From contig NZ_CP046122.1 in assembly GCF_009707365.1 (NCBI RefSeq), forward strand, positions 3,906,001 to 3,970,000: a DNA stretch of 64,000 nt, in the 5' to 3' direction. The notes beneath the pieces are model-generated. The model searched no databases. It worked only from the letters and a program-made list of their open reading frames with translations, and was not told the origin of the DNA. Of the stretch, positions 3,420 to 26,489 are shown piece by piece (the stretch's first letter is position 1; every line of letters starts with the position of its first letter). Made by a program: the position numbers and the translations under genes. Origin of the DNA: Microlunatus sp. Gsoil 973 (GTDB taxonomy: Bacteria; Actinomycetota; Actinomycetes; Propionibacteriales; Propionibacteriaceae).

Positions 3420-3465
3420 GCGCCAACAGGGCCGCGGTGCCAGCGGCCGGATTGGGTGTTTCCCC

Positions 3466-3521
3466 TGTCAGATGGGTGGGCCTAACTGGACTTGAACCAG
3501 TGACCTTTGCCTTATCAGGGC
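3466..3521. repeat. Left attachment site of the ICE (tRNA-Ile 3' fragment)
   Basis: A 56-bp sequence from TGTCAGATGGG to TTATCAGGGC, identical to 63407-63462. It contains the 3' portion of tRNA-Ile(GAT) from the anticodon loop to the discriminator base, plus 11 bp beyond. A further 12 bp (GGGTGTTTCCCC) match with one inserted T in the right copy. This is the displaced tRNA end left when the element carried in a replacement. Because an integrase relic abuts it on the left, the same repeat probably also served as the right end of an older element. Confidence 0.93.
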
Positions 3522-4567
3522 TTCCAGGCACGCGTGGTCTGCGCGGATTTGCGCTCAAAACCGTCCGTGAACGTCCACCGGGATACGCCGGATATCGCCA
3601 CTGTTGTCACCCAATTTGTCTCCCACCCAGCCAGCACTTGAGACCAGCATCGAATGCACTCGGCGCGACTTCGAGATTCGCTACCAGAAGTGACCCGAGT
3701 CATCGAGCAACGGGGTCTGTAGCTGATTCCATTCGGGCCGATAGACGTCCAGACCGGAGCTGACCCCGTCCGCACGCCGCCAACTCTCCTCCTCGATACT
3801 GAACGACACGTCGCCACCGAAGAGAACTGTGATTCGAAGCACCATCTGGAGCTCGCCTTCGAGGATGACTCTGCCGAGCTCCTCCCTGCTCCTCGTCACC
3901 CACGCATCGTCACGGACATCCCAGGGTGCAAAAGTGCCCGACAGCGCGATGCTGAAGTCCAGATCGTACTCGGCGACGTAGAGACCGTCGGGACCAGCCA
4001 CAGTCGAAATTCTCGTGAGTGTTCCACCCCACTCCACCTCGTCCATTGACACGTCCAGCGGCGACTTAGCGAATCCGAGGTCCACGACCTCGGGCCCCAA
4101 ATCAGACTGCACATCCGACGCGACCAGGTAGTCGTAGAGTTCCTGATCCTGGGCGTCAACGACGGCCTGCACCAAATCGTCAGACCCGTCGGGCAGCGCC
4201 GCCAAAAGCCACGGACCAAATTCAGGAACCAACTCAACGCTGCCACTCGCATCCGCGATCTCTGCAGACAGCGCCTGCGACAACGAACCGTCCCGGCCAG
4301 CGAAGGCGCGCTTGTCGGATGACACGAGAACCACGTCACGTCCCTTGCGCGCCAGACGCGCAACATCGGACCAGACAAGCGCGTCGCGGTAACCGCCCAC
4401 CGTGGGCGTCGAACGGCGGGGTCCGGTTGACAGCTCGTCCCACCAAATCGGCGTGGGTTACCTCGGGCCACGGTAGGACGCTGAACCCCAGCCGGTAGTC
4501 GAGTCTCTCCGCAAGGTACTCGCGGTAGCCGTCGGGCGACAACGGCTCGATGACATGTAGGCCTAGC

Positions 4568-5658
4568 TGTACTCGGCCGGGACGTTGATGACACTCCGCG
4601 TCGGTTGTTGACCTGAGGAGGACCTCCGGGTGCGGTGGAGATAGCCGTCTTCACCGTTCCAGGAGGTCCTCGTGTCCCACCGTAACGCGCGTTTGAATGT
4701 TCGTGGCCGCAAGCTGTTGGTCGAACGTGTCTGTGACCAGGGCTGGAAGGTCGCCCATGCCGCGAAGGCTCAAGGGGTGTCCCGTCAATGTGCCAGTCGC
4801 TGGGTTGGACGGTATCGAGCTGAGGGCGAGGCCGGTCTGGAAGACCGGTCCTCACGTCCGCATCACTGCCCGAACCGGACTCCGGTAGCGGTGGAGAACA
4901 AGATCATCGAGCTGCGCCGGAGCCAACGGCGGGGCCAGGACTGGATTGGTCCCGAGCTCGGTGTCCCGGCCCGCACCGTGTGCCGGGTCCTGCGCCGTCG
5001 CCAGATTCCTTACCTGGCCGACTGTGATCCGTTGACCGGTGAGGTGATCAGAGCCTCCAAGACCACCACAACCCGCTATGAGCGCGATCGTCCGGGCGAG
5101 CTGGTGCACATGGATGTCAAGAAAATAGGCAAAATCCCCGATGGTGGCGGCTGGAAGGCCCACGGCCGGCAGATGGGCTCAACCGCCGCAGCGAAGAAGG
5201 CCCGGATCGGCTACGACTACGTCCACTCGCTTGTCGATGACCACTCCCGGCTGGCCTACTCCGAGATCCTGGACGACGAGAAAGGACCTACCTGCGCCAG
5301 CTTCCTGGCGCGCGCCGCGCAATACTTCGCCGATCACGGCATCGACCGGATCGAACGCGTGATCACCGACAATCACTGGTCCTATCGCCGATCAGCCGAC
5401 CTCGCTGCTGTGATCACGACGATCGGCGCCAAACACAAGTTCATCAAGCCGCACTGCCCGTGGCAGAACGGCAAAGTCGAACGCTTCAACCGCACCCTGG
5501 CCATCGAGTGGGCCTACCACCAAGTCTTCACCAGCAACGCCGAACGCGCAGCGGCCCTTGCGCCCTGGCTCAACCTCTACAACACTCGACGCCGACACAC
5601 CGCACTCGGCGGGCTCCCACCGATCAGCCGGCTGTAACCAATCTCGTGGCCGGGTACA
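4568..5658 (+). mobile_element. IS481-like insertion sequence in the PIN gene
   Basis: A 1091-bp element with terminal inverted repeats beginning TGTACTCGGCC and TGTACCCGGCC (19 of 26 positions match) and a perfect 6-bp target duplication CCTAGC (4562-4567 and 5659-5664). It carries one transposase gene. Precise excision restores the disrupted host frame, so the insertion looks recent. Confidence 0.92.
4672..5637 (+). CDS. IS481-family transposase
   Basis: A 321-residue single-ORF transposase. The N-terminal HTH region (VAHAAKAQGVSRQCASRWVG) is followed by an RNase H-fold integrase core: DDE residues appear in LVHMDVKKIGKIP, ITDNHWSYR and GKVERFNRTLAIEW. The C-terminal LYNTRRRHTALGG is characteristic of the family. 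The start (GTG or ATG near 4672) follows an AGGAGG ribosome site. Intact. Confidence 0.95.
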   Translation: MSHRNARLNVRGRKLLVERVCDQGWKVAHAAKAQGVSRQCASRWVGRYRAEGEAGLEDRSSRPHHCPNRTPVAVENKIIELRRSQRRGQDWIGPELGVPARTVCRVLRRRQIPYLADCDPLTGEVIRASKTTTTRYERDRPGELVHMDVKKIGKIPDGGGWKAHGRQMGSTAAAKKARIGYDYVHSLVDDHSRLAYSEILDDEKGPTCASFLARAAQYFADHGIDRIERVITDNHWSYRRSADLAAVITTIGAKHKFIKPHCPWQNGKVERFNRTLAIEWAYHQVFTSNAERAAALAPWLNLYNTRRRHTALGGLPPISRL

Positions 5659-5922
5659 CCTAGCCGCCGCCGTTCCTTGTCGGACAGCGTCGTCGCGGAG
5701 AGGGCACGCGTCAGTGCCCGCTGATAGTTCGCGACACTCTCCTCAAAGACGACCGCCGGCACGAACGCCTGCATCCAGTGCGTGCTGCCAAGGTGCTCGA
5801 TCAACTGATAGCGCAGACTCACGCACGTCAGGTCCCGAGCGAGCTCGTTGGCGTCGAGCACCAGGATCTTCACGCAACCGTTCCTTACGTTTGAGGTTCT
5901 CGCTCAAGTCGGGCGGCACATC

Positions 5923-8874
5923 TCAGTGCTGCTGATCGACGACCACGTCGTCCGGGTTCGCCGAGTTGATGACGGTCCACTGGATGAGGTTGCTCCTGGG
6001 CACCGCCTTCGCGGGCACGGCGATCGAGATGAGGCCGACGAGCTCGTTCCGCTCAACAGGTTTCGTCGCGTCGTCCGGCTCGCGGTCGGGAACGACGGAG
6101 ACGAGGACGACGCCACGTGTTGCCGACTCGCCGAGAGGCGCGACCGGCTCCCCGAGCGCGATGGGTCGGGCGGCGGCACGGTGCTTTCGGTCCGATCCGA
6201 CGAAGTCGATACGACGGGCACGACGCTTGCGCTTCACGATTGAAACATCGCCGCCGAGTTCCGGGATGTCGAACGATCGCCCACCCGTGTTCGGCCACGT
6301 CCACACGACTGCCCACTCGGTGATTTTCTTGTCGTCGGTTGCCTTCGTGATGAAGCCGCGGAAGGCCTTGATGTTCGCTTCGTACTCTGGGTGCCAGGCC
6401 AGTTGATCGAACAGCTGGTTGAACTCCGCCGCCTCGATCAGCCCGACACGAGCACGTTGCTGGAGCCCCGACTTGCCGTCGAGCTCGTACGGAAGCATGA
6501 CCTCGCTCGTTGCGTACTCAAGCAGCGGCACGACGACGTTGTCGAAGTTATTGCGGTTCTCCTCGCTTCCGCGTTCGGGAAGGCCGTAGAGATCTTGGAT
6601 GTCGGTCGGGGCCTTATTGGCGATGACCGCGTTCCACATCTTGTTACGCGCGGTCGGCTTCAGCCAAGGAAGGTGCTGGCTCACAAGCGGTGGAATTTGG
6701 CGCGGTTCCAGCACGGGCATGCCGTGCTCGTCGAAGCCCGCGTACTGGCTGAGCTCGGCTCGGAACGCCTCCTCATCCATGAGCAGCGCCTCGAACGCCT
6801 CATAGAGATCGACTTGCGAGTCACGACGGATGTACAAGCGGACCAGGTCCTGGTAGCCGGGCCTGAACCCGAACCAGCGGCCAGCTTGCATAAGCGTGTC
6901 GGCTTGGCCAGCCTTCCTGCGGAAGTAGGAGATGGTGAGGCCCTCGACGGTGAACCCTCGGCTGAGCTGGGTGCCTCCGACGAGGATTCGCCAGACCTTG
7001 TCGGCTTCAAAGTCGAGCTTCTTCTGCTGTGTCTGAATCTCCTTGTCCGAGTTCACGATGAGCACGGGGTCGCCATCGATGGTGATCTCTGCAAGGGCCG
7101 CTCCGATATAGGGCTTCAGCTCCTCGAACGACGTCGGGATCGGCGCGCCCTCGGCACGAGCGACCATCACCGGCATGAAGTCTTTGTTGTAGAGCTTCTC
7201 GAGTCGGGCGAATCCCCCAGATGAGTTGAACTTCGCTCGGCTCCAAAGCGAGCGGACGTCTGCGGCCGTGTCGGCGTGCTCGTCCCTCTTGACCGACTCG
7301 TGAACGAGCATGGTGTGGTGCCTGTAGCGGAGGTCGGAGTTGGCCTCGCGGTACTTCTTGATCGCACCTGATAGCACCCAGGCGTCGAGTGCCTCTTGAA
7401 GTTCTTCGATCCGTCCTACGGGGTCTGTGCCCACGTCGCCGACGAGTGGCCGGATGTGGGCGAGTTCGTTGGAGTTGGCGACCGTCTTCTTCTCGTCGTC
7501 CCAGCGCTTGCCGACATCGTGGAACTCCTGGACGCCCATGTAACCGGGCGGGCGGTGGAGGGAGAGGACGAAGTCGGCCGGGAAGAGGTCGCGTTCGTCG
7601 TCTGGGTCGACGAACACGTTCGCGAATGGTGTTGCGGTGTATCCGACGTATTGTGCTCGGGGACAGAGCTGGAGTATCTCCGTGATGAGCTGGTTGATCG
7701 TTGTCCGCTTGCGGTTCTCGGCGGAGCCCTTCTTCCACTTGGCCGGGTTGGTGGTGTCCACCGAGGCCTGGTCCGATTCGTCGTCGATGATCAGGACCGG
7801 CAGCTCGGCGAGGTCGTTCTTGAGCGGCTTCAGGTCTTGGATCAGCTTCTTCAGCGGTGCGGAGTTCTTCTTGATGACCGCCACGTAGGCACCCGAGTGG
7901 AAGAGGTTTTCTTCGTCGTTGAGCGGCTTTTGCTTGTTCTTGCGGGCGAACTTGAGCTTGGTCATCGCCTGGGGCAAGCGCTTGTAGTCGCTGCGGTGGC
8001 TCGTCACGCGAGCGATCTCGACCACTCCCGGCAGGTTAAGCGCCTCGCCGTGCTTGACGAAGCGCTCGGCCTTCCACTCCTCGTCCTGCTGGTAGTCGAG
8101 CTCCTTTGCCACGGCAGGGTCGTTTGGGTCCTGCCCAGCCAGAATGTTCTCGACACCCATGAGCTCCATGTCCATGCGGCGCTGAGTCTGAGCGCGAAGG
8201 ATCTCGATGGTGCCGGTGAGAACGATGATCAGCCGGTAGCCCGCGTCGATTCCCTTGGCGACCACCCCCGTGAAGTTCGCGGTCTTCCCGCTCTGGACAT
8301 AGCCGACGACCAACCCCTTGGTCTGCTTCGCCTCCGGTCGCGTCGGCCGGCTGAGCCGTTCCATGACTTCGGTCGTAGTTTCGTCCAGCGACGAGATCGA
8401 CGATGCTGGCCACTTCTTGACTTCGCGGAGGTACGCCTCGTAGTCGTCCCAATAGACGCTGGTCCGAAGCTTTCGTTCGACCGCGTACCAAGGCTCAAAG
8501 ATCTTCGAAATCGTTGTCGACGGCTTCTCGAAGACTTCGATCCGGTGCGTGAACGCCTGCGCGACCTCCATTGACAGCCCGAGTCGGGCATAGATCGCGG
8601 CTCGGCGTTCTTGACTGTGGGCCCATGTCGTCGCGTCGTCGTGACCAAAGAACTCGTCCTGGCTGTCCCACTTGGCCAAGGCGATACGGGCCTGGGTCAG
8701 GGCTGGCTCGTTCTCGTCTGCCTGCTGAACGAATGCGACAAGTTCCGCATCTCCGACAGCCGTCCCTGCCAACGCGGTCAACAGTGGGCCAAGTGGCGGC
8801 GTGGGTTGCTGATTCTTCAACGCGACGAAGGCGTTGGTCAGAGCGTCGGCCCATGCCGGGCGTTGATCGGTCAC
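5923..8874 (-). CDS. Z1-domain ATPase (restriction/defence-associated)
   Basis: A 983-residue P-loop protein. Walker A is GYVQSGKTANF at about residues 197-207, Walker B LIIDDESDQASV at about 366-377, followed by YVGYTATPFANV, a motif III-like segment. The Z1 signature lies near residues 640-690: TQLSRGFTVEGLTISYF, DTLMQAGRWFGFR. Z1 proteins (PF10593) are helicase-like ATPases described by Iyer, Abhiman and Aravind (2008) in gene clusters with MutL/MORC-like ATPases, DNA cytosine methylases, Vsr and PD-(D/E)XK nucleases. Here it follows the DUF4420 nuclease gene with a 6-base gap; a GGAGAG ribosome site overlaps the upstream stop and supports the GTG start at 8874. Probably the DNA translocase or remodelling subunit of the system. 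Intact. Confidence 0.92.
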   Translation of the reverse strand: MTDQRPAWADALTNAFVALKNQQPTPPLGPLLTALAGTAVGDAELVAFVQQADENEPALTQARIALAKWDSQDEFFGHDDATTWAHSQERRAAIYARLGLSMEVAQAFTHRIEVFEKPSTTISKIFEPWYAVERKLRTSVYWDDYEAYLREVKKWPASSISSLDETTTEVMERLSRPTRPEAKQTKGLVVGYVQSGKTANFTGVVAKGIDAGYRLIIVLTGTIEILRAQTQRRMDMELMGVENILAGQDPNDPAVAKELDYQQDEEWKAERFVKHGEALNLPGVVEIARVTSHRSDYKRLPQAMTKLKFARKNKQKPLNDEENLFHSGAYVAVIKKNSAPLKKLIQDLKPLKNDLAELPVLIIDDESDQASVDTTNPAKWKKGSAENRKRTTINQLITEILQLCPRAQYVGYTATPFANVFVDPDDERDLFPADFVLSLHRPPGYMGVQEFHDVGKRWDDEKKTVANSNELAHIRPLVGDVGTDPVGRIEELQEALDAWVLSGAIKKYREANSDLRYRHHTMLVHESVKRDEHADTAADVRSLWSRAKFNSSGGFARLEKLYNKDFMPVMVARAEGAPIPTSFEELKPYIGAALAEITIDGDPVLIVNSDKEIQTQQKKLDFEADKVWRILVGGTQLSRGFTVEGLTISYFRRKAGQADTLMQAGRWFGFRPGYQDLVRLYIRRDSQVDLYEAFEALLMDEEAFRAELSQYAGFDEHGMPVLEPRQIPPLVSQHLPWLKPTARNKMWNAVIANKAPTDIQDLYGLPERGSEENRNNFDNVVVPLLEYATSEVMLPYELDGKSGLQQRARVGLIEAAEFNQLFDQLAWHPEYEANIKAFRGFITKATDDKKITEWAVVWTWPNTGGRSFDIPELGGDVSIVKRKRRARRIDFVGSDRKHRAAARPIALGEPVAPLGESATRGVVLVSVVPDREPDDATKPVERNELVGLISIAVPAKAVPRSNLIQWTVINSANPDDVVVDQQH

Positions 8875-8880
8875 GTTAAG

Positions 8881-9864
8881 TCAGCTCTCCTTCGACTCCA
8901 CGAATCCGCCGATGGGGTCGGGAAGTGCGTCATAGTGCAGGTCTGTTAGGTCCACTCTGTACGAGACCTCCGACACAAGCGCGAAGTTGGGTACGACAGG
9001 GCCGACCAGATCCGGCCTCATCGCGGGAAAGTCGCCCTTGACGTCGTAGGCACGAGGCTGGGAACGAAGCGCCCAGTAAGTCGAGTACAGGTCGGCGTCG
9101 TCGTCCTGCCACCCGAAGCTCGCGAGCCTGGCGTCGACGGCTACCTGGTGGCCACCAGCGATCTTCCGGACCTGGGCAACGACCTGCGGAAGGGTTCGTC
9201 CGCCCTTCGGGGCAGTCCGAGTGAGCTGGATAGACAGCACGCTCAGCGGAACACTGCGAAGTGGGACCAACTGGTCGAGCCCGTGGATGACGTGACGGCG
9301 ACGCTCACTGCTTGTCGTCTTCACCTCGAGGTGAACCGAGTCGAAGGTGAAGTCGTGTTCCTCCGACAGTGGTCCCTGCCATGAGGACGCCGCCGGACCC
9401 GCTCCGATCTGATGGATGAGGTACTCCAGGAAGAGCAGCTCTCCAAGCAGGCCCACCTCCTTCTCGGTGGTCATTGCTCCACGGCTCGCGAACACATTCC
9501 TATGGCGGGCGACGCCAGCGGCGACCGCGGCGGCGAGCGGCATCTTCTCGATCTGGAGTTCGTCGGCAATGGTCGCTAGGAGCCCATACGCCCCGTGAAC
9601 GCTCCCCTCGACTCGGACCGTGAGTTCGGCGTACTCGTCGTCGCCCGCAGAGACTGCGGTGAAGCCGACGTTCTTGAGCTTGGCGACGTCGGGCTCAGGG
9701 GTGTCGTACGGAGTCACCAAAGTAATGAGACCGTTCTTGGGGTCGAGCCGGAGTCGGCATGCCGGCTCCCCCTTGATCGGCAACGCCATGGGCGCACCGG
9801 TGCTCCACAGCTCGTCCAGAGTGGTGAAGGTCAGGTGCCGCGCGTCGTCAGGCGAAATCGTCAT
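8881..9864 (-). CDS. DUF4420 PD-(D/E)XK nuclease subunit
   Basis: A 327-residue protein starting MTISPDDARHLTFTTLDELW; the ATG at 9864 is chosen because an AAGGAA ribosome site sits about 8 bases upstream and because longer starts overlap the previous gene. HDFTFDSVHLEVKTTSS (about residues 150-167) carries the D...ExK catalytic pattern of the restriction endonuclease fold, followed by RHVIHGLDQL, a DUF4420 signature. In the MORC-type restriction clusters this protein is the presumed DNA-cutting component. It lies between the GHKL ATPase (11-base gap) and Z1 genes in one operon. Intact. Confidence 0.88.
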   Translation of the reverse strand: MTISPDDARHLTFTTLDELWSTGAPMALPIKGEPACRLRLDPKNGLITLVTPYDTPEPDVAKLKNVGFTAVSAGDDEYAELTVRVEGSVHGAYGLLATIADELQIEKMPLAAAVAAGVARHRNVFASRGAMTTEKEVGLLGELLFLEYLIHQIGAGPAASSWQGPLSEEHDFTFDSVHLEVKTTSSERRRHVIHGLDQLVPLRSVPLSVLSIQLTRTAPKGGRTLPQVVAQVRKIAGGHQVAVDARLASFGWQDDDADLYSTYWALRSQPRAYDVKGDFPAMRPDLVGPVVPNFALVSEVSYRVDLTDLHYDALPDPIGGFVESKES

Positions 9865-9875
9865 CGGTTCGTTCC

Positions 9876-11375
9876 TTACTCGGCCCGCATGTGCTCTTCG
9901 GTGGCGGCAGCCGCACCAAGGACGCTCTTCCACAGCGCGATCTCGTCCTTGTCTCGTGCGCCGAGGTGCTGTCCCTCGAACACCTGGTGGGTCAACAGAT
10001 AGACGAGCGCCTTGAGAACGGGGGCGTCATTCAAGCTACCGCCGTCGGGGGCGAACAACCTGCGGTAGCGGCTGTTAAGCCATAGCGTCTTTGCTGGGAG
10101 GTCAACGTCGAGAAACTCGCCAGCAGGCATGCGCTTCCACTTGATGTTGACGGCGTCTCCGTCGATGAATGGCAACTCGCTTCCGATTCGCTTCCGAATC
10201 GCTGGCGCGATGCCCTTGTCAGGTCTGATCGCTGGCTTGCGTCGTCGCTTGCGTTTGTTCGCGTCGGTATAGATGGACTCGGCGTCCTGGAGGAAGGTCA
10301 GGAACGTGGTGCCGTCCGAGGCTTCCGCCTTGTTGATCGCGTCGTGAAAGACGGGCTCGAATTTCAGCCCGCTCTTCTCCGGGTTCATGGTGACGAAGGG
10401 GCCTCCGGTGGCTTCGAGGACCACTCGCGCGAGCTGGCGCGCAGGTGTTGGCGTCGCGGTGTCCGACCAGCCGCCGATCTGGAGTAGGCGATCGTTGCGG
10501 TAGATGTAGAAGCCCTGGAACTGTTCTCCGCTCTTGGTGCCGATCCGGAATCCCGTCACGTCGGACTTGGCGGGCCAGATATGACAGGTGAGCTTCACCC
10601 GGCTATCGCCGACCCTCGCGACCAGATCCTTGGGATACTCGGGATGTCCGGACGTCGCATAGCCGAACGGGTCGATGGGCAGGATCGGAACGCCGGGGCC
10701 GGCGAGGGCTTCGCCGCGTTCATCGATCAGTACGTCGATCTCGAGCCGCTTGGAGGCGAGCAGTCTGTGGAACGTGACGCCGAGGTGCGATCTGAGCGCA
10801 TCGTTGCGTGTGGACAGCCAGCTCCGTGCCTCATCCCGGTTGCGTCCGCGGTAAGCGTTGCGGACGTCTGTCCAGACGATCGACGTTCCCAGCTCCGAGC
10901 CGAGGACGATCTGCCTGTCGGCAGCGCGCTCAGCCGCGGCGTCGGCGGACAACACCTCGCAGGTGAAGTCCTTGGAGAAGTCTGCGCGGCGAATGCGGCG
11001 CCCTACGGGCGTTGCGCCGTAACTGGTGGACCAAACCGTCAGGACGTCGCTGTGGCCGAACGAAGCCGCCTTCAGGCCCATCCCGAAGTGTCCGAGGTCC
11101 CCGTCAGAGTAGTCGCGCTGGTGGCCGATCGTCATGGCCGCATTGGCCGCAGCTGCATCGATGCCCTTGCCGTTGTCGAGGACCTCGACCTGGGCCAGGC
11201 GATCGTTGCGGGTCAGGAGTCTGATCGAAACGCGCGATGCGCCGGCGTCGATGCTGTTGTCGACCAGGTCGGCGATCGCCGACTCCAGGGTGTGGTTGGC
11301 GCCCAGGCTCTTAACGAGTCCGGCGTCAGGGGCGAGTTTGATCCGCTCGATGACATCATTCGAGGCGATCACCAT
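9876..11375 (-). CDS. GHKL (MORC/MutL/HSP90-like) ATPase
   Basis: A 499-residue protein with a complete N-terminal GHKL ATP site: N-box IADLVDNSIDAGAS (about residues 33-46), G1 box VLDNGKGID (about 69-77), and G2 box GHFGMGLKAASF (about 95-106). The C-terminal half is less characteristic. Such ATPases are the defining member of the MORC-type restriction-like clusters, where they probably act as an ATP-driven DNA clamp that licenses the linked nuclease. The ATG overlaps the end of the DUF499 gene by 7 bases, so translation is coupled. Intact. Confidence 0.9.
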   Translation of the reverse strand: MVIASNDVIERIKLAPDAGLVKSLGANHTLESAIADLVDNSIDAGASRVSIRLLTRNDRLAQVEVLDNGKGIDAAAANAAMTIGHQRDYSDGDLGHFGMGLKAASFGHSDVLTVWSTSYGATPVGRRIRRADFSKDFTCEVLSADAAAERAADRQIVLGSELGTSIVWTDVRNAYRGRNRDEARSWLSTRNDALRSHLGVTFHRLLASKRLEIDVLIDERGEALAGPGVPILPIDPFGYATSGHPEYPKDLVARVGDSRVKLTCHIWPAKSDVTGFRIGTKSGEQFQGFYIYRNDRLLQIGGWSDTATPTPARQLARVVLEATGGPFVTMNPEKSGLKFEPVFHDAINKAEASDGTTFLTFLQDAESIYTDANKRKRRRKPAIRPDKGIAPAIRKRIGSELPFIDGDAVNIKWKRMPAGEFLDVDLPAKTLWLNSRYRRLFAPDGGSLNDAPVLKALVYLLTHQVFEGQHLGARDKDEIALWKSVLGAAAATEEHMRAE

Positions 11376-14300
11376 TCGACGTCCTCGAAGTCGCTCTTGT
11401 CGAAGCCGAGGACGCTGCTGTTCTCACGGACGGTCCGGGCGACGGCCTCGGAGAATCCGTCGCTGTTCTCAGCGCTGACTTCCAGCACGATGGAGATGTT
11501 CTCGGCGCCAGGCGCCAAGACGATGTGGCGGACGACTTCCTCGATGACCTCGCGCAGCTTGCCGGCAATCGCTTCGGGAGCCGTCGCTTCGACCTCGTAG
11601 CGGCCCTCGTATCGAGCGCGCTCAACCACGGAGCCATCGTCAGAGGACAACTGGGGGGTGCTGGCGGGCTGCGTGGGCGTGCTCAGTGACGGCGCTGTCG
11701 TCGCAGGCTCAGTGACTGGGGTGCTGGGTTCGGTGGCGTCCTGTTCCCGTGCTCGTTGTGCCGTGGCGACGTGAGGGGCCACGAGGTAGGTGTCGTCTGT
11801 GACTACGGCCGGACCGTCCTCGATCGGGACGGTGAGGCCGTTGAAGTCTCCGGTAGCCGAGTCGTAGTCGTCGGCCAGAGCGAACCCGGTCTGCGGCCAA
11901 ACGATGTCCAGCGCGACGTCTTCGATCGCACGGATCAGGACGGTCTTGTCGCGGAGGCGCGGGAGGTAGAGGTACTTGGTGTAGTAGTCCCAGAGGTCAC
12001 CGACCCGAATGCGGCCCTGGTTCCAGACACGGTGGAGCTTGGAGTCGAGGTCGTGGCGGATTGTCGCCGGCGCGATCTGTACGCGGAGCACATCCTCCTT
12101 GACAAGCTTCTTCCCCGTCCGGACGCCGAGGTGGTCGTCCTCGCCGTCGGCGCGCACGACCGAGATGCTGAACGGCTCGTTGTCGCCTCGATCACGCGGA
12201 TAGAGAGCCCAGATCCAGCTGGTTCCGATCCGCTGCGATACGACCTTGTTGGTCTCGTCGACCTTCGCGCTCGCGAGGGCGACGCGCTGCTGGGTGAGGT
12301 CGAGGTGGTCCTTGTCCCTGACGACGCTGCGCCAGGCCAGATGCTGTCGGACAATCGACTCAAGTTCGGCGTACCGCTGTTCGTCTGCGACGAGGAAGAC
12401 CAAGGTGTTCCGTCGCTCGCGGCTGGCGCTGCCACGGTTGGCCACGATATCGCGAGCGAACCTGATGGCGCGCGAGTCGGTGTCCTTGTTCTTGTGGGTG
12501 AACCGCGGGTGCACGTACACGAGTCGGACGGCTTCGGCCTCGGGGACATCAGACGCGTCCTCGGGGGCGACGATGGCGCCCGCGAAGTCGGCTCCAGCCT
12601 GTCCGGCTTGCCTGAGCCGGGTAATGACCTCGGCCCAAACGTCGTCTTCGTGCAGGTTCGCGGCGCGCTCGTTGACCGTGCGGTTCAGGGACGGTTGCAG
12701 GTCGTACCAGTACCGAACGCCCTCGGAGAACAGGTACGTTGCCCGGTCGCTCAACATTTGAAGCGCCGACCCGAAGTTGCCGACTGTGTCACCGGGCATC
12801 GCAACGCCGAGGAAGACGTTGTTGCGCTCGATTCCCTTGTGGGCGCTCTGTAAAGTCGCTGCGGAGCCGAGGAAGGCGGCCCGTGCAATGCGTCGGGTGA
12901 GGCCGCGTTTGCCGAACAGCGGTCGTTCCTTGTCGATCTGGAACGGAAGGCTGTCAGTTCCGTCGACGTCCGAGTCGATGACTGAACGCCATTGCACATC
13001 GACGTACTGCGTCAACTCGCCCAAAACCTGATCGGCCGCGATCGGGACGGAGCCGGGCATGATCAGAGGCGAGTCGTCCCCAGCGTCATAGAGCTCCTTG
13101 ACGACACCGCTCATCAGCCGCAGAACTCCGCGTGTGCGCTGGAACCGTTCCTGGGTCGACCAGTCCTCGTACAGGCGGGCGAAGAGTTCCGGGTGGATCG
13201 GGTACGCGGAGCGGATCTTCCGCTCGTAGGCGTTCTCGGTGGTCTCCCGAGGGAACTCGCCCTGGTGCTCGCGATAGAAGGTGACGAACTTCCTCGCGGT
13301 CGCGGCCACCTGGCGAGAGGCCTGAGCGTCGGGCGGCTCGAAGAGTCGGCGGCGCACGATCTCGAACGACTCCTGCGCCGACGCGGGATGCCACTGGTGG
13401 GCCACCCGTCCGACGACATGTTCGAGCCGGCGCAGCGCTGCGCGACCTCGTTCCCCACCAGTCTCGAGATCCGAGGCGACGGACTCCAAGGTGGCCCCGT
13501 CAGGCTCACGCCGTACGTCGCTTGCCGGAATGGATACGAGAAGGAGCGCGCCGGGTGTCGCGGCGACCGCCTCGGTCAGAAGCTGGGCGAAAGTGAACTG
13601 GGTCTCGAAGCTGCCGCCCGGCAGGTCGTCGTCCCCGAGCTGCCGCGCGTAGGCGACCCACTCGTCGATGAGGATCACGCAGGGCGAGTATCGCGAGAGA
13701 AGTTCTCTCAGATGGTCGCCAGGGCTCGTGCTGTTCCTATCCGAATCGGCCACCAGGTCGAAGGCCTCCTTACCACCGAGCTGTCGGGCGATCTCGCCCC
13801 ACATGGTCCGCACGGTGAGGCCGTCCCGCTGACGCGCTTGTCCGGCGGCAATCTCGTTCCCCACCAACGCGACGCGCCGGATCGTCCGGTCGCCGTCGGC
13901 AAGCCCAGCGGAGTGGAGAATCTCCTGGATCTCCTGCGGCAGCCCGGCTGCGGGCACCGACGAGAACAGGTGCCAGACCGCGAGCATCGAGTGTGTCTTG
14001 CCGCCTCCGAAGGTGGTCTGAAGGTTGATGACCGGTGCCGCGGCGGCGGCGCCAGCAACGCGGTTAGCGGCTTGGGTGAGAAGATCCTTGAGTCCTGCGG
14101 TGAGGAAGGTGCGGCGGAAGAACTCGACTGGGTCGGAGTACTCCGCCGAGGTGGTTCCTGTCTCGTGCGCCACCGAGTGAAGGTTGGCTGCGAACTCAGA
14201 CTCCTTGAAGCGTCCGCTGAGGATGTCGGGGTGGGGTAGGAGCACCTCGCGCCACGGTGTCAGCGCGACGTCGCCAAGCCCGGAAATCGAGGTGCTCTCG

Positions 14301-14773
14301 CGGACGTCTCGCCTTGTCTCGGCCTCGATCTGGGCTCGCTGGAGGTCCGTTCGGTCAGCCTTGATCCGGTCGGCAGCCGCCGGCTGATCCGCCGCTCGCA
14401 ACAACCGCTCGGCCGTGTCCAACGCTCGATAGGTGTCGTCGAAGTTGAACGGAGCGCCGTGCGCCGCACGGTTGCGAATGTCGCGAAGCTCGCCAGCCAG
14501 GTTCTGCTCAGCTCGCGAAAGCGCGGAGGAGAACGGGAAGCCGAGAGCGCCCAGGCGCTCGGTCATAACTCGGAGTTGCAGCGATAGGTCGGTCTGGGCG
14601 TACAGGAATCCGGCCTTGTCGTTCTCCTTTTGCTCGTCGAGCACGCGAAGGATCGCAGGCCACTCCGCGCCGACGGGCACGTGAGGCGCGAGCTGACGCG
14701 CGACGAAGGGGCCGAGTGCCTCAGCGGTGATCTCAAGAGCGCGCGTGACGCGCTCGCGGTTGCTCATAGCCAC
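11369..14773 (-). CDS. DUF499 AAA+ ATPase with N-terminal Swt1-like HEPN domain
   Basis: A 1134-residue protein; GTG 14773 is preferred because GAGGAGG lies 6 bases upstream. The N-terminal ~150 residues look like a Swt1-family HEPN domain, with the R-x4-H signature in RDIRNRAAHGAPF (about residue 100). The DUF499 (COG1483) ATPase follows: Walker A TTFGGGKTHSML near residue 260 and Walker B CVILIDEWVAYARQ near 355. DUF499 proteins are typically encoded next to DUF1156 methylases in putative defence cassettes, as here (11-base gap). The tail (about 975-1040) is rich in Thr/Pro/Ser, a linker before a final globular segment. Intact; the ATP-dependent core of the methylase module. Confidence 0.9.
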   Translation of the reverse strand: MAMSNRERVTRALEITAEALGPFVARQLAPHVPVGAEWPAILRVLDEQKENDKAGFLYAQTDLSLQLRVMTERLGALGFPFSSALSRAEQNLAGELRDIRNRAAHGAPFNFDDTYRALDTAERLLRAADQPAAADRIKADRTDLQRAQIEAETRRDVRESTSISGLGDVALTPWREVLLPHPDILSGRFKESEFAANLHSVAHETGTTSAEYSDPVEFFRRTFLTAGLKDLLTQAANRVAGAAAAAPVINLQTTFGGGKTHSMLAVWHLFSSVPAAGLPQEIQEILHSAGLADGDRTIRRVALVGNEIAAGQARQRDGLTVRTMWGEIARQLGGKEAFDLVADSDRNSTSPGDHLRELLSRYSPCVILIDEWVAYARQLGDDDLPGGSFETQFTFAQLLTEAVAATPGALLLVSIPASDVRREPDGATLESVASDLETGGERGRAALRRLEHVVGRVAHQWHPASAQESFEIVRRRLFEPPDAQASRQVAATARKFVTFYREHQGEFPRETTENAYERKIRSAYPIHPELFARLYEDWSTQERFQRTRGVLRLMSGVVKELYDAGDDSPLIMPGSVPIAADQVLGELTQYVDVQWRSVIDSDVDGTDSLPFQIDKERPLFGKRGLTRRIARAAFLGSAATLQSAHKGIERNNVFLGVAMPGDTVGNFGSALQMLSDRATYLFSEGVRYWYDLQPSLNRTVNERAANLHEDDVWAEVITRLRQAGQAGADFAGAIVAPEDASDVPEAEAVRLVYVHPRFTHKNKDTDSRAIRFARDIVANRGSASRERRNTLVFLVADEQRYAELESIVRQHLAWRSVVRDKDHLDLTQQRVALASAKVDETNKVVSQRIGTSWIWALYPRDRGDNEPFSISVVRADGEDDHLGVRTGKKLVKEDVLRVQIAPATIRHDLDSKLHRVWNQGRIRVGDLWDYYTKYLYLPRLRDKTVLIRAIEDVALDIVWPQTGFALADDYDSATGDFNGLTVPIEDGPAVVTDDTYLVAPHVATAQRAREQDATEPSTPVTEPATTAPSLSTPTQPASTPQLSSDDGSVVERARYEGRYEVEATAPEAIAGKLREVIEEVVRHIVLAPGAENISIVLEVSAENSDGFSEAVARTVRENSSVLGFDKSDFEDVEW

Positions 14774-14784
14774 CCGATGCCTCC

Positions 14785-17596
14785 TCAGTCGCCCAATTCT
14801 TCGTCAAGAACGAGCATGGCCTGCTCCGTCGCCTTGGGTGCGGCACTTGCGTGAGCCTTGGCAGCCGAAGTGACCTCGGGCCAGGACGTCACGAGTGCGT
14901 TGAACATGCCGGCGACCTGGACCATCGACCGCTTCTCGGCGAGGGAGAACACTAGATAGGCCAGCTCCTTCACCGCCTCCACTTCGACCCGCGTCGACGC
15001 ACCGTCGAGGATCCGGCCCCCCTCGGCGAGACCGCTCTCATCAAGCGCCTTCACCATGTGCATGGCCACCTCCCAGAGCGTGATGTGCTCGTCGCGCTCG
15101 GGACGGTACGAGTTGGGGAGTTCGGCCGTCGTCAACAGGCGCACTTCACCCGCCTTGGAGTACACCGCTCCCGAACGGTCGAGGCCCTTGACGGACGTGT
15201 TGTAAGCACCCGCAAGCGTCTCAGCCTCGCCGTATCCCGCCTTGTCGAACCCGTGCGTCGCGAACCACTTCACACACCAGCGCGTGTCTGTGTCGAAGTC
15301 GCCCTCCTGGTCCGACAAGACCTCTGCCAGGATCGCGTTGATCAGCTGCAACGCCTCGCGGACCGTTACGTTCCTACCGTTCGGCTCCACGACGCGGCTG
15401 TACCTGGAGAACACCGCCATTCCTGGGCCGATCGCCGCCTGTGCTAAGTCAACGGGCGCGATTGCTCCCTGCTGGAGTTCCCTCAGCTTCCCGGGGAGTT
15501 CCTCTCGCAGCATATCGATGTATTCGCGTCGGTCTGTAATCGGAGCATCCGACTCGCGGGGACGGAGCGATAGGACAATTGACGTTGCGAGAGCATTCGA
15601 GCCGATGCTGCGGAGTCGATTGGCCATCTCGGAGCGGATTGGCCAAGTCGATGTGATCTCCCATCCGGACTGGATCATCGCCTCCAGCAGAGTTTCCCAG
15701 CCCGTCGATGCCTCGCCGTCTGACGTGGACTCGCTCTGCTTGAACGCGTAATAGACGGTGATCGGATACATTGGCGAGGCAGACTGTCGTGCCAACGCGA
15801 ACACATTGCGGAACCCGTCTTCGAAGAATCGGCGTGCGCCTGACATGCCGCTGTGCCGCGATGGTTCTGCGACTAACTCCCTCAGCCTTCGGCACAAGCA
15901 TTGTTGCGAAGAGGCTTGGGTGAATCGCGCGAAGCGATTTTCGGAGCCAAACGTAGAAGAGGTCGCTGAGCGCTGCGTATCCGACGTTGCTGTAGTAGGG
16001 CGGGTCCGTCGAGATCACGACATCCGCGTAAGACCGCGAAGCGGCATCGGCCTGCGTAGCGACGCCTGGCTCACCCTTCGGCAAACTGGCGAGCGCGCGC
16101 TCGACCCAAACGATGCTTGAAGCGATGTCTGCTCCAGCATTACCAAAGGGGTTGGACTCCACAAAGTCTGAGGCCATCTGCAGTTTCGGCCCGGCGAAGG
16201 CGCTGCGCTCATATTCTTTGGCAGGCCCGTTATCCCATGTGGTCAATCGCGAGTGACGGTCCACGAAGCGTGACATCCCGATCGCCAGATACGTCGCGAC
16301 GGCATCGGCATACGCCTCGGCGCCGATGCCACCGTCGGCGAGCCTGTCGCCCGCGTCCACGTCTGACCCGCGTGCATCAGCGAGCACCTCCTCGCGCGCA
16401 GCAACAACCAAGTCACTGAATGTCGAGAGCGCAACAAGTTGGCGGTTTGTGAATAGCTGAGACCATTCCGTGTAGCCGTATCCCTGGACGCGAAAGCCCA
16501 AAGCCGATTCGGGTAGCGTCCCGGTGGGAAGCGCCGTGGGCGGTGCGACCACTGCCGACATCTCTTGAACCTCGTCCGGCGTGACGTAGATCCGCCCGCG
16601 ATCGCCTTCGGCCACAACCGCCATGAGCTGAGCCCCGAGCCGTCCGGCTTTGCCTTCTGCTCGGATGTATGCGGCAGGAGCCACAGCGTCACATGCGACG
16701 CAACGACCGTTGCCGCCTGACGATGTGCCGTCTCGGTCTTTCGCTGTCGCGCCTGCCGAGCCGTGTCCGACCGAAAACTCCACACGCTTGCCGCTCGGCG
16801 TCTCAGGGTCGGCGACGACCGTCGGTACGACGTACGCTTCCTTCCCTTTCTTCTTCCCTAGCCACCACGATCGAGCAAGTGGCATCTCGATCCCGCAGGC
16901 GGGATTCGGACATGTGACGGATCGCGCCCAGATCCACGCGATGACCGTGGCCTTTGTTTGGTCCGGCAGCGTCACCTTTGGATAGACATGGCCGATGCGC
17001 TTCTGCGCCTCGTCGCGCATCCATCTACCGTATGCACGTACATCCGCAGCGAGGCCCTCAGCGAGGCTCCACTGACGGATTTCAGACTCCGCTAGGCCGG
17101 GAAACACCGGCGGACGGTCTCGGAACCTGGGAGGAATCTCGATGAGCGCCTTGTTGATCAACACCGCGACCGGGTTCAGGTCTGAGGCCTGGGCCCGAAG
17201 CCCCAGTCTCTGAGCTTCAAGCGGGATCGTCCCGCCACCAGCAAACGGGTCGAGAATCGGCGGCGGATTACCGCCAGTGGACTTCAGAATTTCGGCGAGC
17301 GCGTCGGCGAAGACCGTCTCGTCTCGGATGTTGTCCCAGTCGACCAGCCGCTCAATAAGCCCGTGCAAACGCTCGCGCTCGCGCCGTTGGTCGGCCTCAG
17401 TCGGGAACTCATCTGGCCGGGCGCTCGGATCGTCGACCAACTGCGCGAAGAGCACGGCTCGGGCCGCAGTCAAGGGACGGCGCGCCCACCACAGATGCAG
17501 CGTCGACGGATGACCATGCCGGATGGATTTTTCGCGCGTCGCCTGCTTGTTGATCGCCTCTAGCGGCAGCGACACCTCGATGAGCTTGCGCTTCAA
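14785..17596 (-). pseudogene. DUF1156 DNA methylase with Zn-ribbon, single-base frameshift
   Basis: The N-terminal frame has the DUF1156 (COG1743) hallmark PLEAINKQATREKSIRHGHP and HLWWARRPLTAARAVLFA, then the SAM-binding motif ILDPFAGGGTIPLEA, an inserted Zn-ribbon (CPNPAC and CVAC), and the catalytic motif STDPPYY. About 90 bases later the frame is lost, and the remainder continues in another frame from ELVAEPSRHSGMSGARRFFEDG to the end. Deleting one C from 15879-15881 joins the halves into a 936-residue protein without another stop. I place the start at TTG 17596, with AAGGAA just upstream; ATG 17647 is an alternative. Predicted adenine or cytosine N-methylation activity; as sequenced the enzyme stops shortly after the catalytic DPPY, so it is probably inactive unless the indel is an assembly error. 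Confidence 0.88.
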
Positions 17597-17675
17597 CCTG
17601 TTCCTTCGACTCGACCCCAACGCGGAGCCGACCGCCCCACAACACATACGTACCAGGGGGAGTCCACAGAACCCG

Positions 17676-18095
17676 TTATGAGCTGGCTTGCCCCGATCGG
17701 ACAGCCGCCACGACGCGATCTGCTGCGCACCCCGGGTCTTCATGCTCCCAGATCCGGACCACCTTCCACCCGAGTTCGGCAAGATGCATGTCAGTTTCGC
17801 GGTCGCGCTCGACGTTGCGAGCCAGCTTCGTCGCCCACCAAGCGGCGTTGCTCTTCGGCTCGGTCTTGTGCTCGGGACAGGAGTGCCAGAAGCACCCGTC
17901 TACGAATACAGCGACCTTCTGTCGCGGGAACAGGATGTCCGCTCGCCTGCGATGGAGGCCGGGCAGGACGGCATCGACGCGATACCGCAGGCCCCGCGCA
18001 TGTAAGAGCCGGCGCAGAGCCCATTCCCCGGCCGTGTCCCGCGTGCGCTGACGCGACATCCGAAGTGACGTCCGGCGATCCGTGCTCGTCCCCAC
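17676..18095 (-). CDS. vsr: Very-short-patch mismatch endonuclease Vsr
   Basis: Nicks T:G mismatches formed by deamination of 5-methylcytosine, starting short-patch repair. The family core is present: ALRRLLHARGLRYRVD, RADILFPRQKVAVFVDGCFW (the Asp and HxxC/H active-site region), HSCPEH, WWATKLARNVERDRE, and LGWKVVRIWEHED. GTG 18095 gives 139 residues, normal for Vsr, with GAGGAG 10 bases upstream inside the previous gene; ATG 18059 (127 residues) is the other option. It sits beside a C5-cytosine methyltransferase gene, the usual partner. Intact. Confidence 0.92.
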   Translation of the reverse strand: MGTSTDRRTSLRMSRQRTRDTAGEWALRRLLHARGLRYRVDAVLPGLHRRRADILFPRQKVAVFVDGCFWHSCPEHKTEPKSNAAWWATKLARNVERDRETDMHLAELGWKVVRIWEHEDPGCAADRVVAAVRSGQASS

Positions 18096-18099
18096 CGGT

Positions 18100-18801
18100 T
18101 CACGACTCCTCGAAGATGGAGAGCAACCCGCTCCACTTGCCCAGGTCCGGCGCGGGAATGCTGAAGGCAGCGTACGGGCAGTCCTCGGCGAGACACTGTC
18201 CGCCGGCGAAGAGCTGAACGCCGCCCAGGACCAGCTCGTCCGCCAGACCCGTCGGCCGAAGGATTCGTAATACGGGCCCCTCAACGGAGGCAGCCGTGAT
18301 TACCTGCTCGTCACGAGTGAGGAACACGTGTGCGCCGGCCGCCTGGGCCTCGAGCAGCAAGTCGCGGTCAGCCCCGTCCGGGATGCCGGTGACTGATCCG
18401 AGCGCCGGCAGCGAGCCCTCCGAGGGCGCCGGCACACTCCAGTCCCCGCACTGAAATGCCAAGCTCTGCGCCAACGCGTCGACCGCCGGCCCACGAGTGG
18501 CGAGGAACCGCTCGGAGAGTCGTTTCGCGTCGGTACGCGACCTCGGCGTCACGATGAACCGAATGTCACGGAGCATCCAGATGTCAACGATGGCGCCGAG
18601 CGCGAGCAACTCCCCTTTGTAGTCTTCCGGGACCTCGAGGTCCGCGGCGTTGATGAGTTCGGCACCGTGTTGCTGCAGGTCGATCAGCACGTTCGAGTCG
18701 AGCGCGACGACCAGCGGCCCGTGATAGCCCGGAGGCAGCAGAGCGGGAACCGCATCATGGCAGAAACCGATACCGCCGTCGGCCGTCACCTCGTGCAACA
18801 C
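18100..18801 (-). CDS. PIN-domain-like protein
   Basis: A 233-residue protein with an early conserved Asp in PLVVALDSNVLIDLQQHG (about residues 30-47), a middle segment LRDIRFIVTPRSR, and a C-terminal acidic cluster GIPDGADRDLLLEAQAAG and HVFLTRDEQVI. These are the expected positions of the PIN RNase acidic triad or tetrad. It is the first gene of the leftward operon, followed by vsr after 4 bases, and is divergent from the cytosine methyltransferase gene. No antitoxin-like partner is visible. PIN fold likely; substrate unknown. A GTG start is used. Confidence 0.75.
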   Translation of the reverse strand: MLHEVTADGGIGFCHDAVPALLPPGYHGPLVVALDSNVLIDLQQHGAELINAADLEVPEDYKGELLALGAIVDIWMLRDIRFIVTPRSRTDAKRLSERFLATRGPAVDALAQSLAFQCGDWSVPAPSEGSLPALGSVTGIPDGADRDLLLEAQAAGAHVFLTRDEQVITAASVEGPVLRILRPTGLADELVLGGVQLFAGGQCLAEDCPYAAFSIPAPDLGKWSGLLSIFEES

Positions 18802-18905
18802 ACTTCGAGCCTACGAGTCCGTCGCAGGTTGCGAGTATGGTGTCGCCGGCGAGTCTCACCGAGCTACCGCATAAATGTCGTGCGGGCCGGCTAAAGTTCA
18901 GTGCC
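18802..18905. promoter_or_regulatory. Divergent promoter region of the defence operon and dcm
   Basis: A 104-base intergenic region between two divergent transcription units. Toward dcm, TAAAGT at 18890-18895 fits the actinobacterial TAnnnT -10 pattern, about 10 bases before the chosen ATG, suggesting a short or absent leader. Toward the leftward operon, TAGGCT on the minus strand lies about 15 bases before GTG 18801. No convincing -35 boxes are visible. Assigned by pattern only. Confidence 0.4.
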
Positions 18906-20012
18906 ATGGTGGAGCCTCGGTCGTTTTCGTGCCCCCAGATTCGCGTACTTGATCTCTTTTGTGGCGCTGGCGGCCTGAGCGCGGGCTTCGGAGCAGAGTC
19001 GGCTCGGTTCAATACCCTGAGGGCCATCGAGCACGACCAGGCGGCTGCCGCCACATACGCGGAGAACCACGATCCGGAGACCGTGTTCGCGGGCGGCATC
19101 GAGGACTGGCTCAAGGAGGAGGAGATCCCCGGGGCGGATCTCGTCATCGGTGGACCTCCGTGCCAGGGCTTCTCTGCGCTCGGCAAGCAGGAGCAACTCG
19201 ATGAGCGCAACCAACTCTGGCTCCGGTACGCCGAGACGATCCGCAAGGCCAAGCCGAAGTACTTCGTGCTCGAGAACGTGCCCCAGTTTCTGACGTCGGT
19301 GCAGTTGGTTCGGTTCAAGCGCCAGTGCCGGCCGAGTCAGCGGCTCGGTGCTTACACGTTCCAGGCGAAGATCCTCAACGCTGCCGACTACGGCGCTGCC
19401 CAGGTCCGCAAGCGCGTCATCCTGATCGGCCACCACCGTGACCTGCCCTTTCCGGGATTCCCGCCAACCACACACGCCAAGGTCGCGGACGACACTCACG
19501 TCGCGTGGCTTACGCTCGGCGACGTTCTCAACGGTCTCCGGCGCGCCGTGACCGACATCCATCTGCCGAGTCGAGTCATCGAGGTCGACGGCACCTTGCT
19601 CCCCGGAGCGTTCAAGACGAGCGAACTTCACCTGACTCGACACTACGAGCAGCTCTCCATCGACCGCTTCCGCCACATCCCCGCTGACGGCAACCGCTTC
19701 GACATCCCGGAGAACTTGCTGTCGGACTGCTGGAGGAAGCACAACAACGGCAGCGGCGACGTGATGGGCCGGCTCAACTTCCAGAAGCCTTCGGTGACCA
19801 TCCGGACCGAGTTCTTCAAGCCGGAGAAGGGGCGATACCTGCACCCGACCGAACACCGGGCGCTCACCCACCACGAGGCTGCGCGGATCCAGGGCTTTCC
19901 CGACGACTACAAGTGGGTCGGTTCGAAGGTCGCCATCGCCCGCCAGATCGGCAACGCCGTCCCGATCCCGCTCGCGAAGGCGATTGGTGCCCATCTCGCC
20001 AGACTCCTCTGA
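18906..20012 (+). CDS. dcm: DNA (cytosine-5-)-methyltransferase
   Basis: A 368-residue C5-MTase with all main motifs in order: I DLFCGAGGLSAGF (SAM binding), IV GGPPCQGFSALGK (catalytic Cys in PPC), VI ENVPQFL, VIII NAADYGAAQVRKRVILIG, the target-recognition region, IX-like RALTHHEAARIQGFPDDY, and X QIGNAVPIPLAKAIG. ATG 18906 is preferred over ATG 18837 because the protein then begins just before motif I and a -10-like element precedes it. It is divergent from the PIN/vsr/DUF1156 operon. It is probably the self-protecting methylase of the Z1/DUF4420/GHKL module, with Vsr repairing its deamination products. Intact. Confidence 0.95.
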   Translation: MVEPRSFSCPQIRVLDLFCGAGGLSAGFGAESARFNTLRAIEHDQAAAATYAENHDPETVFAGGIEDWLKEEEIPGADLVIGGPPCQGFSALGKQEQLDERNQLWLRYAETIRKAKPKYFVLENVPQFLTSVQLVRFKRQCRPSQRLGAYTFQAKILNAADYGAAQVRKRVILIGHHRDLPFPGFPPTTHAKVADDTHVAWLTLGDVLNGLRRAVTDIHLPSRVIEVDGTLLPGAFKTSELHLTRHYEQLSIDRFRHIPADGNRFDIPENLLSDCWRKHNNGSGDVMGRLNFQKPSVTIRTEFFKPEKGRYLHPTEHRALTHHEAARIQGFPDDYKWVGSKVAIARQIGNAVPIPLAKAIGAHLARLL

Positions 20013-20188
20013 GAAGTTGACCAGGTGGGACTCACCGAAAGTCAGGTCAAGATCGAGTCGAAGTTCAGAGAACAGCGACGGTTCCTTCCGACCATCGAGC
20101 GGACCCGATTCGCGATGTAGCTCGCCGGCTCCTTCTTGGGGAGACACCGTGACCAAGGTCTCGCCGCGTCGATGCGCAAATACCGCCT

Positions 20189-21775
20189 CTACAGACCGAC
20201 GCCGACACCTCGCTGATGTAGCCATTTCGCAGGGTCTACGGCCGCATAGGTGTCGCCAGGCTGAATCCCTGCCGGATAGGTCTCAAAGTGGAGATGAGGA
20301 CCGAAGCTCCTGCCGGTGACTCCGATCGCGCCGACGCGCTCGCCAGTCATGACAGACTGTCCCACCACGGCATTCGTGGCTGACATGTGGGCGTACAGAG
20401 TGCGCGTGCCGTCGGCGTGCTTGATGGTCACGTAGTCACCAGCCCACGATCCGGCAGCGCCGCTGTACCCGGCATGGGTGATCGTCCCAGCCAACGCAGC
20501 ACGGACGGGTGTGCCGATCGGGGCAGCGAAGTCAAGGCCGGTGTGGTAGCGGGCCCAGGAGCCGACTTCGCCGAAGGTGGCGGTGATTGTGTAGTGCTCG
20601 ACGGGTGTCACTGCCTTGCCGCTAATGATCTTGGGCGGCGGTCCGCTCGGTTTAGCTGCGTTGCCGTAGGTGGTGACTTGAACATGGTCCATGTGGTTGG
20701 CGGTCGGGCTGCCGCGATCCGGCATCAAGCGCCAGCCTTCGCTTGCACGTTGGATGTTCCAGATGTGTTGCCGATAGATGATGTATTGCACGCCGAGTTC
20801 GGCGTGGTGGGCTTTGACCCACTTGGCGATCTTGGTTCCGTAGGCGACGGCTTCCGGACTGTTGAAGTCGCGGTAAGCGGAGCTGATCATGATGTCCACG
20901 GCTCGGCCGGATGGATGGTCCGGATACTGGTCGTGCGCTCGGTAGCCGTAGAACGTCATGATCTTTGGGAACTGCTGTTTGATGCACCGCAGAACCAGCA
21001 AGGTGTCCGGCTTGAGGCGTGCTTCCGCTGGTGATCCGGATGGCGGACACCCGGTCGGGTGCGTTCCATCACCGCAGGGATCCGTCGGCTGGACACCTAC
21101 TGCGTCGGCGATCAAGCTGTTGGATGAGCCTCCGTCGAAGGCGGTGACGAATTCTCGCGCGACGGGGATGTCATCGGCGACTGCATCGGGGAACGCCGAG
21201 TGCTGGACCTGATCGGCGGCGTCGATGATGTCGATGTGGGCCCAGTCGGGAACGTCCGCCAGGCCGGGGATGTGGTAGCCGGTCCGACCTGCCGGCCGGG
21301 TTCCGGCGGTGATGGCTTGGGCGTACTGCTCGGCAGTGACGGTGTGTCCCAGAAGAAAGCTGCTGGCACCGTAGGCGGGATCGGTGACCTGAGCCAGGCT
21401 GCCGTACCAGCCAGGGATGGTGCGTTGCTGGAATGGTCCGGCATCACCGTCGGCGTTCGGTCGATTGATCGTGGGGTTGGCTCCAAGGGTGCTTTCTTGC
21501 GAAGCGACGGCGATAGCGATCACCGCAGCCTGATCGGCGGGTCCGCGGAGACGCGAGCTGAGCTTGTGAGCTTGGAGCCAGATGATCTTGGCCAGCCGCA
21601 CTTGGCCATCGGTCAGCCCCGGCATGTCTGGGATCGGACCGGGGATGATCGGCTGGGAGATGCCATCCCCGTCGCAGATAGTCGGCGTGACGTTGCGCGC
21701 GGTCAGGAAGCCGGCAAAGGGCAGGAACACGACGATCGCGATTGCCACCGAACCGAGCACGATCAGTCGGCGCAT
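20189..21775 (-). CDS. VirB1-like cell-wall hydrolase: lytic transglycosylase-like and M23 peptidase
   Basis: A 528-residue exported protein. An N-terminal membrane anchor (VLGSVAIAIVVFLPFAGFL) precedes a lytic-transglycosylase-like segment (AVASQESTLGANP, GPFQQRTIPGWYGS), a middle region with HPSGRAVDIMI and NHMDHVQVT resembling a metal-dependent carboxypeptidase-like fold, and a C-terminal lysostaphin-type M23 domain with zinc ligands in HTGLDFAAPIGTPV and HLHFETYPAG. Such hydrolases open peptidoglycan for the conjugation channel in Gram-positive T4SS. The ATG follows the upstream stop after one base, so the two genes are co-translated. Intact. Confidence 0.9.
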   Translation of the reverse strand: MRRLIVLGSVAIAIVVFLPFAGFLTARNVTPTICDGDGISQPIIPGPIPDMPGLTDGQVRLAKIIWLQAHKLSSRLRGPADQAAVIAIAVASQESTLGANPTINRPNADGDAGPFQQRTIPGWYGSLAQVTDPAYGASSFLLGHTVTAEQYAQAITAGTRPAGRTGYHIPGLADVPDWAHIDIIDAADQVQHSAFPDAVADDIPVAREFVTAFDGGSSNSLIADAVGVQPTDPCGDGTHPTGCPPSGSPAEARLKPDTLLVLRCIKQQFPKIMTFYGYRAHDQYPDHPSGRAVDIMISSAYRDFNSPEAVAYGTKIAKWVKAHHAELGVQYIIYRQHIWNIQRASEGWRLMPDRGSPTANHMDHVQVTTYGNAAKPSGPPPKIISGKAVTPVEHYTITATFGEVGSWARYHTGLDFAAPIGTPVRAALAGTITHAGYSGAAGSWAGDYVTIKHADGTRTLYAHMSATNAVVGQSVMTGERVGAIGVTGRSFGPHLHFETYPAGIQPGDTYAAVDPAKWLHQRGVGVGL

Positions 21776-21776
21776 G

Positions 21777-22256
21777 TCAGCGTGCTCCCGGCCTGACGCT
21801 GGTCACGACCCAGCCAGCTGCACGGGTGGGGTCCGGCACCAGGTCGAGCGCGATCGCCGAGCCGTCGGATAGTTGCTGGGCGACGGTGACCGTTTCGTGG
21901 GTCTCCGCGACTGCGCGCGGTTCGCCGACCGGTCGTCCGTCCGGGATCTTGGCGGGATCGGTTCGAGCCAGCAGGGTCGCGAGCCGAGGTGTGGCCACCG
22001 ATCGGAGCCGTACGCTTCTGGTCCGGGAATGATCAAGGAACGCTTGGACGAACTGCTGCGTGGTGGTTTCCCAGTCTGGCGCCGGGTCGGTCGACACAAC
22101 CACGGGCGATGGCTGGGTGTGCTGCTTAGTGCGTGGCGCACTGACCCCAAACCCCGGTCCCCGGGGCTGCGGGGCGGATGAGCCGAGGTGGAAGGCGACG
22201 TGGGCGACCAGCACCGCAACCAGCAGCGCTCCCAGGCTCCGTACGATCCATTTCAT
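21777..22256 (-). CDS. Membrane-anchored conjugation accessory protein
   Basis: A 159-residue protein with one N-terminal membrane helix (SLGALLVAVLVAHVAFHLG), a Pro/Thr-rich linker, and an extracellular segment with WETTTQQFVQAFLDH followed by a small mixed fold. This layout resembles the NTF2-like domain of VirB8/TcpC proteins. It is directly upstream of the cell-wall hydrolase gene and probably works with it at the cell envelope. Family not recognised; assignment rests on layout and neighbours. Confidence 0.65.
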   Translation of the reverse strand: MKWIVRSLGALLVAVLVAHVAFHLGSSAPQPRGPGFGVSAPRTKQHTQPSPVVVSTDPAPDWETTTQQFVQAFLDHSRTRSVRLRSVATPRLATLLARTDPAKIPDGRPVGEPRAVAETHETVTVAQQLSDGSAIALDLVPDPTRAAGWVVTSVRPGAR

Positions 22257-22320
22257 CAGCCCATAACCTTTGTTCGAGGTTTGACTGATGATCTAAGCTA
22301 CAGAACAGATTGGGTTACGT

Positions 22321-24238: not shown

Positions 24239-24661
24239 CAGCGCAGCCGATCCGATACAGCGTCACGCATCATCCGCAGCCGTTCGGCCCGATAGGCGAG
24301 CTTTGTTGCCAACAGTGTTCCAAGCGCCTCCGCTTCGGCTTCAAGATCATCGGCGTAACTGAACCTGGCGAGGAACCTCTTTGCAATCGCCGGGTCCACA
24401 TGCGGAGCCACCAGCCTGACAAGCTCGTCCAGATCATCATCGGAGCCCAGCGGCATGTGGCCCAGCAGCATGTGCGCCAACTCGTGGCAGATGATCGCCG
24501 TTCGCTGCGCAGCTCCGATGCGCTTGGGCACAACAATCCAGTCATGACGTTGGGTGGCGATCCAGAAGCCGCTTGGCTCGTACGGACCAAGATCTTCGGT
24601 AAACAGCCGAATGGTCCGATGGCGCTCGATCGAAACAGAGCGGATCAGATCGTCGACTAGA

Positions 24662-25792: not shown

Positions 25793-25858
25793 ACTAGACC
25801 AGTTGCCGGCAGCAGACCGTCGGTCCGCGCGGCCGCGGACCTGACACGTCGTGCTGTT

Positions 25859-26290: not shown

Positions 26291-26418
26291 AACCTGTCCT
26301 CTTCAGCCCACCGGATTGTTTGCAACTCGACCAGCATCCCACATCTGGCACCTCCAGCACAGACCCGGCAGGCGTCAGCCAACTTCAGAACAGTCAGCTG
26401 GCGATCGTGTCCCGGGAG

Positions 26419-26432: not shown

Positions 26433-26463
26433 ACAACTTCCGCATGGACTCTAGCGAATTCTG

Positions 26464-26477: not shown

Positions 26478-26489
26478 GCTCCAAGGGTG

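Follow-up and report, generated by a model that had tools for sequence, protein, structure and literature searches.

A 64,000-nucleotide stretch of Microlunatus sp. Gsoil 973 (hereafter, the window; NZ_CP046122.1, positions 3,906,001 to 3,970,000) carries a leftward operon that appears to join parts of two known defence families, the methylase HmaB and the ATPase HmaC supplying the recognition half of one and the MORC-linked restriction operons the DNA-cutting half of the other (Table 1). The same combination is inherited together in other actinobacteria, so the operon appears to be a variant not described before and not a chance neighborhood, with the copy in the window being broken. The composite of MORC and DUF499/DUF1156 modules proposed in the first-pass annotation was recovered in 15 genomes, but not as an intact operon in the window, where HmaB is frameshifted and an IS481-family insertion sequence (IS) interrupts the last gene.

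Recurrence of the join

Across the 15 hybrid genomes, which belong to several families, the gene order is the same, the spacing is close, and the trees are congruent. All 15 hybrid HmaC proteins form a single clade, with HmaA, the helicase-nuclease that usually accompanies HmaB and HmaC, absent at the locus, and the members of this clade that were found through HmaC itself (five, plus the window) all have the MORC trio. It is a five-gene block that recurs in order, rather than all eight of the originally listed families: Vsr is present in 12 of the 15 hybrids, the accessory protein has a relative only in L080 (56% identical), and no relative of the terminal PIN-like gene was found at the other loci. 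The Dcm-like gene is nearby and divergent in 11 of the 14 other hybrids, at 50-63% identity. Downstream of the operon in L080, the closest relative, lies a 1349-residue CARF-kinase-AAA protein (14085-18134; PADLOC, 1343 bits). In the Arthrobacter plasmid p2MP (L204, 5985-9275), a 1096-residue protein with a TmtA-like N-terminal part (159.6 bits) occupies the place of HmaBC upstream of the MORC trio, suggesting that the trio takes different upstream partners.

No HmaA was identified in the window operon, and the best match to a canonical HmaA query in the same genome scored 42.7 bits. HmaA was likewise absent from 14 of the 15 hybrid genomes, which yielded just brief matches of a generic helicase kind (the best in each genome scoring 23.9-66.2 bits), compared with 1042-2540 bits in five canonical genomes, the top value being that of the query's own genome. 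The exception is G101 (hybrid locus L034), which encodes an HmaA-like helicase on another contig (G101:C2; L210, 9064-11943). This protein is 43% identical over a stretch of ~810 residues and covers positions 7-838 of the 1176 in the PADLOC HmaA model, the C-terminal part being gone; HmaB and HmaC were not found beside its gene.

The Walker A and B patterns of HmaC and the DPPY motif of HmaB, a protein that also has a fast-changing region, are present in 15/15 hybrids, as is the MORC motif GhXhhpXXRhl defined in PMC2292703 (GFYIYRNDRLL in the window). The superfamily II (SFII) helicase motif DThhQXuRhFG was found in 14/15 (DTLMQAGRWFG in the window), and the R-x4-H motif of the HEPN domain is intact in 12/15 (RNRAAH in the window HmaC), as it is in 51 of 57 other, mostly HmaA-linked, HmaC proteins. 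In the DUF4420 protein, E165, D194, and E203-x-K205 are invariant in all 13 aligned rows; these residues and the Pfam match favor the proposed PD-(D/E)XK nuclease, although a fold search of the PDB with a good AlphaFold2 (AF2) model gave no significant match.

Relation to known defence systems

Hma, now called Type-1 BREX-related (BR), has a three-gene core of a DUF499 ATPase, an N6-methylase, and an SNF2 helicase, and the helicase-nuclease HmaA is its likely effector (PMC12839542, PMC8565338, PMC3710099). The first-pass annotation had treated the DUF499-DUF1156 pair as a separate defence cassette; the defence association stands, but the pair is part of this larger core. As in Type-1 BR systems, HmaC combines HEPN with a DUF499 AAA+ ATPase, and HmaB, a DUF1156 N6-adenine methylase, is encoded upstream on the same strand, whereas the SNF2 helicase, usually nuclease-fused, is missing. 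The N-terminal HEPN on the ATPase is a feature of a Type-1 BR subset, with the fusion reported in PMC3710099. Among the ten operon open reading frames (ORFs) scanned, there was no PglZ or iSTAND/BrxB, the hallmarks of Type-3 BR and BREX, and no standalone DUF3780, that of Type-2 BR. A merger of BREX-type parts with those of other defence operons has been published as BREX-Related Capture, but the partners described there are different, namely HerA/FtsK, GNAT, TGT, and PglZ (PMC12839542).

The remaining genes resemble the third type of MORC restriction operons outlined by Iyer, Abhiman and Aravind in 2008 (PMC2292703), sharing a MORC GHKL ATPase with the S5 motif, an SFII helicase with DThhQXuRhFG, a restriction endonuclease-fold gene with E-D-ExK, a cytosine methylase, and Vsr; by these features, the window operon is predicted to function in restriction. 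Unlike in those operons, HmaB and HmaC lie upstream of the MORC gene, an arrangement that the available portion of PMC2292703 does not describe. An assignment to Mza was rejected, with MzaB, MzaC, and MzaD scoring far under the NCBIfam cut-offs (104.7 of 850, 269.8 of 1500, and 74 of 420 bits, respectively) and no match to the Mza component AIPR among the operon proteins. The CglI and NgoAVII systems, as presented in PMC4267653, differ in having a PLD nuclease and three genes (methylase, R, and N), thus lacking MORC and HmaBC.

Operon parts and carrier element

Profile matches upheld the first-pass assignments of the divergent C5-cytosine methyltransferase, the Vsr gene, and the DUF499 ATPase with N-terminal HEPN (Table 1). 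The DUF1156 methylase was recognized as well, but in two ORFs (15449-17782 and 14785-15897, frames set against L080) matching PADLOC HmaB at 645 and 382 bits. HmaB is also split in G101 (L034, 9736-12554); if both splits are real, the methylase has been broken at least twice. The MORC and HmaC genes share a 7-nucleotide overlap. The terminal gene, annotated as PIN-like, is a remnant rather than one frame, split by the IS481-family element at ~4568-5658 (IS481 domains; target-site repeat CCTAGC). Scans of the accessory protein against Pfam and PADLOC gave no match.

Table 1. Features of the operon and its carrier element in the window
Feature	Position	Strand	Evidence
Integrative conjugative element, operon at left end	3459..63462	.	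Direct repeats, integrase, tRNA-Ile
Terminal PIN-like gene remnant	3681..5873	-	Weak PIN_12 match
Operon gene between DUF4420 gene and terminal remnant	5923..8874	-	
DUF4420, putative PD-(D/E)XK nuclease	8881..9933	-	Pfam DUF4420, 125.8 bits
MORC-family GHKL ATPase	9876..11375	-	Pfam HATPase_c_3, 78.5 bits
HmaC, Swt1-like HEPN (N-terminal) + DUF499 AAA+ ATPase	11369..14773	-	PADLOC HmaC, 869.5 bits; Pfam HEPN_Swt1, 91.5 bits; Pfam DUF499, 89.7 bits
HmaB, DUF1156 N6-adenine methylase, DPPY motif, variable target-recognition region	14785..17600	-	
Vsr-family endonuclease, domain ~17737-18076	17676..18284	-	NCBIfam vsr, 115.8 bits (cut-off 97.85)
Accessory protein, PIN-like by eye only	18100..18801	-	
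Dcm-like C5-cytosine DNA methyltransferase, divergent from operon	18837..20012	+	Pfam DNA_methylase, 216.9 bits; NCBIfam dcm, 176.7 bits

The operon is bordered by one of two 63-bp direct repeats (97%; 3459-3521 and 63400-63462), the right one overlapping tRNA-Ile (63416-63491) and adjoined by a tyrosine integrase gene (Phage_integrase, 62175-63392). Together with a TrwC relaxase, a coupling protein (T4SS-DNA_transf), and an ArdC-primase, these features define a 60-kb integrative conjugative element. The same element encodes a further defence candidate, an ApeA-like protein (ApeA_NTD1 and HEPN_Apea, 39637-40515), and, at 41188-45434, three adjacent leftward proteins (569, 451, and 290 residues; Pfam-negative at 0.001) that are possibly another cassette. 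Just beyond its left end, an IS21-like transposase gene is paired with one for a helper ATPase, both recognized by eye (893-3057).

Alternative readings and significance

Two complete, independent systems might share one transcript, with MORC/cytosine-methylase restriction co-traveling, through adjacency alone, with an HmaBC remnant that provides methylation or HEPN activity only. Independent neighbors would be expected to retain HmaA at times, so the single, HmaA-free HmaC clade, with the MORC trio beside every member found through HmaC, makes this explanation somewhat unlikely. We consider it very unlikely that HmaBC and HEPN form a guard that senses when MORC restriction fails or is blocked by phage and then cleaves RNA, so that the cell dies or stalls, with no part in the choice of DNA target. 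The intact HEPN motif in most hybrids is consistent with such a guard, and HEPN has been proposed as the last-resort effector of BR systems (PMC12839542); however, the motif is also common outside the hybrids, and the invariant DPPY motif and fast-changing region of HmaB point to site choice. A chance assembly within a degenerating defence island of a mobile element, to which the broken HmaB, the interrupted last gene, and the additional defence-like gene of the conjugative element might be attributed, is extremely improbable: shared gene order, tight spacing, and tree congruence across the 15 genomes argue against it for the five-gene block, whereas chance could still account for the accessory genes at either end.

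Beyond the hybrid variant as such, the operon might represent a fourth, MORC-type BREX-related class whose single shared cutter is licensed by self marks of two kinds, HmaB supplying N6-adenine and the Dcm-like enzyme 5-methylcytosine, with HmaBC sensor and MORC clamp acting as an AND-gate that links two logics of restriction, an extension that we regard as quite unlikely. If it were true, DNA would be attacked only when sensor and clamp agree, and prokaryotic MORC proteins would gain a defined upstream partner.

The recurrent join indicates that a BREX-related ATPase-methylase core is separable from its own helicase-nuclease and can combine stably with a MORC module unrelated to it. Detection rules that demand HmaA would overlook or misclassify such hybrid loci. 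A single operon thereby makes it testable what BrxC/HmaC-type ATPases pass DNA to, what role prokaryotic MORC proteins play, and whether target choice lies with the methylase alone.
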